Assembly (NCBI RefSeq): GCF_021531915.1
Contig: NZ_JAFBIV010000007.1
Span: 1-64,000 of the forward strand
DNA: 64,000 bases
Direction of reading: 5' to 3'
Source: Oscillibacter valericigenes
Lineage (GTDB): Bacteria > Bacillota > Clostridia > Oscillospirales > Oscillospiraceae
The first letter of the stretch is position 1; every line of letters begins with the position of its first letter. Position numbers and translations under genes: made by a program. Positions 23,815 to 24,654 of the stretch are shown here, in pieces. Under the pieces are notes generated by a model. The model did no database searches, was not told the origin of the DNA, and was given only the letters and a program-made list of their open reading frames with translations.

Positions 23815-23848
23815 GAGAGCGGCACCGCAAGGTGCCGCTCTTCTTTAC
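23815..23848 (+). terminator. Terminator of potABCD
   Basis: A stem AGAGCGGCACC with loop GCAA, followed by TCTTT and a further T-run. Confidence 0.88.
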
Positions 23849-23946
23849 CCTTTTGGTCGGCAAGGAACGTCACTGATCAGATATGCTTTGCTGTACATCG
23901 GTATCGTATGATAAACTTCATAAATCGAAATCTGCGGAGGATTGTT

Positions 23947-24600
23947 TTGGAAAAGGATAAACTGATACATGGAATTTTATGGTCAGTCTTTTATTTGATT
24001 GTGTACGGCGTATTAAGCGTTGTTGGTAATTTTTTGTTTCCAGTGGAGTTCCTGATAGGATGTGGGCTGATAGGCGGAGTCTATATCCTAATCAATGCAT
24101 TTTTTATCAGATACAAAAGAGAACGACTGTTTGTAAATGGATTGCTCTCAGCGTTCGCTGTCTTATGCCTTGGCATTCTAATCGGGAAGCAGCTGAAATT
24201 TCAGGATGTTCTTGCGCTTGGTGCTGCAATTTCGATCATTGATATTCTTAGCTTTACAAAACATGGGAAACACACTACAAATGCAAAGGCTATGTCAAAC
24301 ATTCATTTCATGTCGAAATTGATTGTTTACGGAAAAGAGAAGAATGATGTCCTGGTGCCCACCTGTGGGATTGGAGATTACTTTTATTATTCGATGTGGA
24401 TATCGGGAATTCACACGATTTCAAATTCAATTTATGCGTACCTGTTGGCAGTGTGCACGATCCTTCTGGGGAGCTGTATCCATTATGCGATCATTATGAA
24501 GTTGTCCCGGCGGGAAAACTACAAAGGCTTTCCAGGGACTGTTTTTCCTTTTTTGTGTATTGCGGTACAATATACAATTCTGCATTTTCTGAGATGTTGA
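23947..24600 (+). CDS. Polytopic membrane protein, candidate GxGD (presenilin/SPP-like) intramembrane aspartyl protease
   Basis: A membrane protein of 217 residues with about seven hydrophobic segments. In order it shows a membrane Asp (Asp99) followed by SFTKHGKH, a polar loop, GIGD (141-144) at the head of the next membrane segment, one more segment, and a last segment led by KGFPGTVFPF (Pro196). Archaeal presenilin-type peptidases have YDAxSVxxTKHM, then GLGD, then a GLP/PAL motif in the same order, so I infer a GxGD intramembrane protease; the first motif lacks the usual Tyr and the last is degenerate. The start is a TTG at 23947 with GGAGG six bases upstream; an ATG at 23908 would add 13 residues but has no ribosome-binding site. 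The gene is visibly AT-richer than its neighbours, suggesting transfer. A non-enzymatic membrane protein is the alternative. Confidence 0.6.
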   Translation: MEKDKLIHGILWSVFYLIVYGVLSVVGNFLFPVEFLIGCGLIGGVYILINAFFIRYKRERLFVNGLLSAFAVLCLGILIGKQLKFQDVLALGAAISIIDILSFTKHGKHTTNAKAMSNIHFMSKLIVYGKEKNDVLVPTCGIGDYFYYSMWISGIHTISNSIYAYLLAVCTILLGSCIHYAIIMKLSRRENYKGFPGTVFPFLCIAVQYTILHFLRC

Positions 24601-24625
24601 CCATTGGTAGTTCGGTTTCCCGCTC

Positions 24626-24654
24626 TTGCCAAAGGTGAAAAAAACGAGTACACT
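24626..24654 (+). promoter_or_regulatory. Promoter of the thioesterase gene
   Basis: TTGCCA and TACACT are separated by 17 bp, about 40 bp before the start. Confidence 0.6.

Follow-up and report, generated by a model that had tools for sequence, protein, structure and literature searches.

An unannotated gene of the gut-type bacterium Oscillibacter valericigenes probably encodes a stand-alone intramembrane aspartyl protease of the presenilin/SPP fold, predicted to cross the membrane in seven helices with its N-terminus inside and its C-terminus outside. Presenilin is the membrane-embedded protease behind Alzheimer's gamma-secretase, and to our knowledge enzymes of the presenilin/SPP kind have been described from eukaryotes and archaea. 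Here, we describe the gene, its relatives, and the inserted segment that carries it within the 64,000-nucleotide stretch that was analyzed (the window).

The gene and its motifs

The ORF runs from a TTG start at 23947 to a stop codon at 24598-24600 and encodes 217 aa. An in-frame ATG at 23908, upstream of the TTG, is an alternative start that would add 13 residues. Asp99 is followed by ILSFTKHGKH, GIGD forms residues 141-144, and KGFPGTVFPF forms residues 193-202; both the ORF and the order of its motifs are confirmed from the sequence as the initial annotation had given them. NCBIfam returned 0 families for the protein, and Pfam left it without a family (best E of 0.014, under the cut-off of the family concerned). 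The features of the gene are as follows.

23936..23940, + strand: GGAGG, which lies 6 nt ahead of the TTG and is probably the ribosome-binding site (sequence)
23947..24600, + strand: predicted 217-aa seven-helix presenilin-fold GxGD membrane protein (ORF, homologs, model, and fold match)
24241..24243, + strand: codon of Asp99, which is close to the C-terminal end of helix 4 and is proposed as the first catalytic aspartate (sequence, model, and conservation in 87/89)
24277..24297, + strand: predicted short helix (residues 111-117) that follows Asp99, close to where presenilin has helix TM6a (model; PMC9282858)
24352..24369, + strand: predicted beta-strand (residues 136-141) directly before GxGD, at the presenilin/PSH beta-2 place (model; PMC9282858)
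24367..24378, + strand: GIGD with Asp144, the second proposed catalytic aspartate (sequence, PDB profile search, and conservation in 88/89)
24523..24534, + strand: KGFP, a PAL-like loop before the last helix (sequence, model, and Pro196 in 86/86)

A family conserved at the proposed catalytic positions

A search of 5.8 billion proteins identified 73 at E ≤ 0.001, the window's own included, and a search with the profile A1, in which 7998 candidates were scored, identified at least 91 at E ≤ 10, the weakest one listed having an E of about 1e-11. Together, these searches gave 92 distinct proteins. Clostridia make up most of the named sources and titled loci; sources include Lachnospiraceae, Coprococcus comes, Anaerosporobacter faecicola, Cellulosilyticum, Romboutsia lituseburensis, Herbinix, Blautia, Clostridium sp. 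DL-VIII, Sporofaciens, and an "uncultured eubacterium." Alignment A3 has 52 rows, with identities down to 26%: the window protein, two loci, and 49 proteins selected by hand from the other 91 for length and spread.

The initial annotation had held that the likeness to presenilin motifs is less likely to be due to chance, and the pattern of conservation shows that it is more than chance. In A3, Asp99 is present in 51 of 52 rows (the exception, P0027, has Asn), while Ser102, Phe103, Thr104, Gly107, Thr110, and Asn112, the glycines at 141 and 143, Asp144, and Gly194, Pro196, and Pro201 are each present in all 52. Since A3 had dropped rows, we recounted over all 92 proteins, fragments included, among those having the position in question. 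Asp99 was found in 87/89 (P0027 with Asn and the 120-aa P0069 with Trp) and Asp144 in 88/89 (the 149-aa P0063 with Glu); Gly141 and Gly143 were found in 89/89 and Pro196 in 86/86. The three deviating proteins could be natural inactive forms or could reflect sequence errors.

Two earlier remarks on the motifs now read differently. The first motif does lack Tyr, as had been noted, but this is a trait of the family, in which a Tyr precedes Asp99 in 1 of 52 rows. The third motif had been called degenerate; across the family, it reads KG[FIL]P[AG]T, with the Leu of PAL replaced by Thr, and is hence not degenerate. Between the window gene and its homolog at locus L002, dN/dS is about 0.10 by the Nei-Gojobori method, at a dS of 1.9 that is near saturation.

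Predicted fold and membrane orientation

Structure predictions for two family members both contain seven helices and adopt what is modeled as a presenilin fold. When these two models were used in fold searches, the 24 top PDB entries listed for one and the 22 top entries for the other were all presenilin, SPPL2a, or PSH, and every match well above background was of the presenilin type. That the predicted fold resembles these proteins well above all else listed supports the presenilin/SPP-like GxGD protease reading proposed at the outset. The placement of the motifs along the membrane segments also agrees with that proposal: in the model, Asp99 lies near the end of helix 4 (residues 85-101) and is followed by SFTKHGKH, GIGD stands at the start of helix 5, and, after helix 6, the KGFP motif comes just before helix 7, the last. 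The two aspartates are thus on adjacent helices.

SPP has nine helices. According to PMC2947513, presenilin is predicted to have nine helices and human SPP seven, and the catalytic residues of PSH are D162 and D220. PMC9282858 places helix TM6a of PSH at H171-E177 and the beta-2 strand at A213-G217 in PSH and R377-L381 in presenilin-1, and reports reduced activity of both PSH and gamma-secretase when this strand is deleted or mutated; the second catalytic residue of presenilin-1 is Asp385 (PMC12067869). By these positions, the short helix of the window protein begins and ends 12 and 18 residues after Asp99, compared with 9 and 15 after the corresponding Asp of PSH, and its strand spans 8 to 3 residues before Asp144, compared with 7 to 3 in PSH and 8 to 4 in presenilin-1.

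We next consider orientation. Over the 52 rows, the mean number of Lys plus Arg residues is 2.5 at the N-terminus, 0.7 in loop 1-2, 3.3 in loop 2-3, 0.8 in loop 3-4, 6.8 in loop 4-5, 0.4 in loop 5-6, 3.5 in loop 6-7, and 0.3 at the C-terminus. Under the positive-inside rule, this charge pattern indicates that the N-terminus is inside, the C-terminus is outside, and the catalytic loops are cytoplasmic. This is the orientation of presenilin; SPP-type enzymes have the opposite one.

We infer proteolysis and the following catalytic geometry. The mechanism would resemble that of PSH or presenilin. A water molecule would be activated by Asp99, at the end of helix 4, together with Asp144, the GxGD aspartate with which helix 5 begins. 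A substrate helix would pair, through its unwound end, with the strand that precedes GxGD, and the KG[FIL]P loop ahead of helix 7 would be part of the active-site lining, a role that the PAL loop has in presenilin. Expected substrates would be single-pass stubs with the N-terminus out and the C-terminus in, probably cleaved near their cytoplasmic end because the active-site loops face the cytoplasm. With the presenilin orientation, the enzyme might clear or cut such stubs, for example the C-terminal anchor left after sortase cuts an LPXTG protein. The sortase substrate is a guess: in the host genome, two sortase matches exceed the cut-off and the four anchor matches all fall under it, and no link was found there between these matches and the protease gene.

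Sequence-level comparison with presenilin and PSH

Against 177,635 distinct PDB sequences, the A3 profile had a single match at E ≤ 10, to the human presenilin-1 fragment 2kr6 (E of 0.0072), with the alignment at GxGD and the next helix. The Romboutsia protein used alone also ranked the 2kr6 chain first (E of 0.29). The narrower profile A1 found no PDB sequence, and the window protein alone had two weak matches (E of 0.14 and 0.61), both to plant mitochondrial proteins.

The presenilin family PF01080 is matched at E ≤ 10 by 3 of the 52 members, at best with 20.3 bits against a cut-off of 34.3; this score belongs to the Romboutsia protein (E of 2.7e-4), whose residues 143-187 align with positions 333-376 of the 408-position profile, and unrelated ORFs reach similar E values with PF01080 by chance. 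For the SPP/PSH family PF06550, 2 of the 52 match at E ≤ 10 (best E of 0.0032), and P0058 scores 12.2 bits against a cut-off of 23.9. No score shown reaches the curated cut-off of either family, and the window protein matches neither. PF04258 is not among the 25 Pfam families best represented over the 52 members. No PF06550 match was found in 299 genomes sampled from the window's phylum or in 60 relatives. Two matches of PF01080 in genomes, L044 and L045, were rejected as spurious (low-complexity repeat; inside a ribosomal protein gene region).

Profile-profile comparison with an alignment of 36 archaeal PSH sequences gave a score of 13.8, compared with 14.8 for a reversed decoy. Among block-permuted decoys, 41 of 60 equaled or exceeded the real score, as did 36 of 60 that were fully shuffled. 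The score thus did not rise above decoys, perhaps because both alignments are shallow (Neff of 3.4 and 2.5), and we do not count the comparison as support.

The fold, the two-aspartate layout, and the PAL-like loop are thus those of presenilins as far as the models go, but the Tyr of the YD motif, the nine helices, and a score above the Pfam cut-offs are absent. On this basis, we call the group a separate, putatively seven-helix bacterial family of the presenilin/SPP kind (A22, taken broadly by structure), outside PF06550 and PF01080. Whether it is a bacterial branch of the presenilin-fold proteases, perhaps the smallest form, acting alone and spreading among Clostridia as a single-gene insertion, is a proposal that we hold in about equal balance with its opposite.

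Alternative explanations

The protein could have a presenilin fold and yet be noncatalytic, a descendant binding transmembrane helices as, for example, a chaperone or inhibitor. We consider this unlikely. One full-length homolog does carry Asn at 99, two fragments deviate at 99 or 144, and the SFTKxGKxTxN stretch after Asp99 is conserved in a manner unlike the PSH alignment, which could mean another chemistry. Both aspartates, however, are among the most conserved positions together with both GxGD glycines and the loop proline, and a mere binder would not need them. The least probable alternative in our estimation is a GxGD peptidase of another kind, related to the prepilin peptidases (A24, TadV/FlaK-like). 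These and FlaK (PF01478) are likewise GxGD aspartyl peptidases of prokaryotic membranes; a small multihelix bacterial membrane protein with GxGD and a second Asp would suit them, and the host genome has no PF01478 match, so that the role of prepilin peptidase would be vacant. Against this, only presenilin-type folds match well above background, the model puts the two aspartates on adjacent helices with a beta-strand preceding the second, and a Pfam scan to E of 10 listed no PF01478 match for the window protein, a scan in which HMMER filters drop most weak matches. Prepilin peptidases are also absent among the 50 entries listed per fold search, which by itself excludes nothing.

The remaining alternative, that this is an unrelated YwiC-like (PF14256) membrane protein or transporter with coincidental motifs, is very improbable. 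In its favor, 39 of the 52 members match PF14256 at E ≤ 10 (best E of 4.5e-7), two (P0017 and P0053) of 20 proteins scanned singly pass its cut-off, and it is the precomputed domain in 6 of the 73 rows from the 5.8-billion-protein search. The match, however, spans helices 1-3 only and covers about positions 51 to 124 of the 126-position profile, or about its last 60%. Among three full-length YwiC proteins, none has SFT after an Asp, one has a GxGD (GAGD, in L038), and all three have an N-terminal HG[AG]WAM that is absent from the window protein; neither that motif nor a full-length match places the protein in PF14256. No unrelated family that came up in the searches accounts for the catalytic half, and the fold and PDB profile searches point to presenilin.

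As a separate observation, helices 1-3 of many members resemble the second half of the YwiC-like profile (P0017 residues 8-83; L036-L038), and in L038 the GAGD lies further on.

Relation to known proteases

SPPL2a of humans (PF04258) has an extra N-terminal domain and YD and QPAL motifs. Archaeal PSH, or MCMJR1 (PF06550; PDB 4hyc, 4hyg, and 4y6k), has 301 aa, whereas the window protein has 217 aa in a predicted seven helices. The window family further differs from PSH in its bacterial host, in having no Tyr before the first Asp and no PF06550 score over the cut-off, and in the profile comparison described above. Compared with human presenilin-1 of gamma-secretase (PF01080), the window protein lacks the long loop between the two Asp helices, and we propose no partner subunit for it. 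It would also have two helices fewer than the nine of presenilin-1 (PMC2947513). YwiC-like proteins (PF14256) share local similarity over helices 1-3 and have no corresponding catalytic half.

Among the papers listed in our search of the open-access literature, none was on a bacterial presenilin-fold protease. Raut et al. (2021) reportedly trace the archaeal roots of presenilin/SPP proteases and may discuss bacteria. A presenilin homolog termed "bacterial" in one review we take to be probably the archaeal PSH. The term occurs there in connection with lipid binding (PMC8396450). If the enzyme does clear or cut membrane stubs, it would be a bacterial counterpart of the "membrane proteasome" role of gamma-secretase. 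A compact bacterial form that works as a single chain would reveal which helices are truly needed for the chemistry, and it might provide an easily expressed model for work on the mechanism and inhibitors of gamma-secretase. It also raises the question of its function in gut bacteria.

Single-gene insertion and distribution

The gene lies in a segment of low GC content that is bounded by a short direct repeat.

23835..23842, + strand: CCGCTCTT, left copy of a direct repeat of 8 bp, at the edge of the insertion (sequence)
23843..24622, no strand: inserted low-GC segment of 780 bp, absent from the same site in the relative G039, which has one base instead
24620..24627, + strand: CCGCTCTT, right copy of the 8-bp direct repeat (sequence)

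The GC content of the gene is 39%, that of the surrounding region about 60%. In G039, flanks that are 91 and 95% identical enclose a single base where the window has the 780 bp. Six relatives were aligned at the site, and all of them lack the insert. Among 99 genomes searched (its own, 60 of the same genus, and 38 of the same order), the gene occurs in its own genome only. In a sample of the phylum, 3 of 398 genomes matched, two of them partially and without GxGD, so that only the window's own genome remains; we did not include these partial A3 matches, L015 and L016 (profile positions 20-80 and 3-103), in the family. Part of the gene only is held by 4 of 11 genome loci with a relative (L007, L010, L011, and L012), and in L007 this could be an assembly break. 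The gene looks like an accessory one that comes and goes, apparently passing between bacteria as a lone gene.

Besides the protease gene, the insert contains no ORF of more than 82 aa and therefore no full transposase. A perfect 11-bp stem (arms at 23816-23826 and 23831-23841) ends right before the insert and has the look of a potD terminator; a consensus scan did not score it as a terminator, and the promoter and terminator counts of that scan were near those of shuffled sequences. In viral contigs, 10 stretches matched a pattern and none was confirmed by tblastn. PADLOC gave no match at E ≤ 1 for four proteins, PHROGs gave only weak matches for five (best E of 0.009), and a viral structure library gave no match at E ≤ 0.001.

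Gene neighborhood

Upstream of the window gene is what we read from the sequence as a putative spermidine/putrescine-type ABC transporter set; downstream is a fluoroacetyl-CoA-thioesterase-like gene (PF22636). At other loci, the neighbors vary and include an acetyltransferase, an alpha/beta hydrolase, an HNH protein, an AraC or TetR regulator, and a kinase-like ORF. Because the neighbors differ between genomes, the enzyme probably acts alone, and we propose no conserved neighbor as a clue to a partner or substrate.

A few details of individual loci are worth recording. In two different genomes, the protease gene or its remnant is closely preceded by a short kinase-like ORF (L004:7383-7919 and L011:7343-7966); the two ORFs have similar N-terminal sequences and no Pfam match at E ≤ 0.001. 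One homolog, P0070 (211 aa, 37 contigs), carries the family's C-terminal half, beginning at about Phe103, fused in frame to another N-terminal part that looks like a resolvase-type recombinase; it may represent a remnant that a mobile element has captured. The protease gene or its remnant is adjoined in both L005 and L012 by a similar series of small genes, which we read as flavodoxin-like and VOC-like and which Pfam shows to include an acetyltransferase; they look like exchangeable single-gene cargo.
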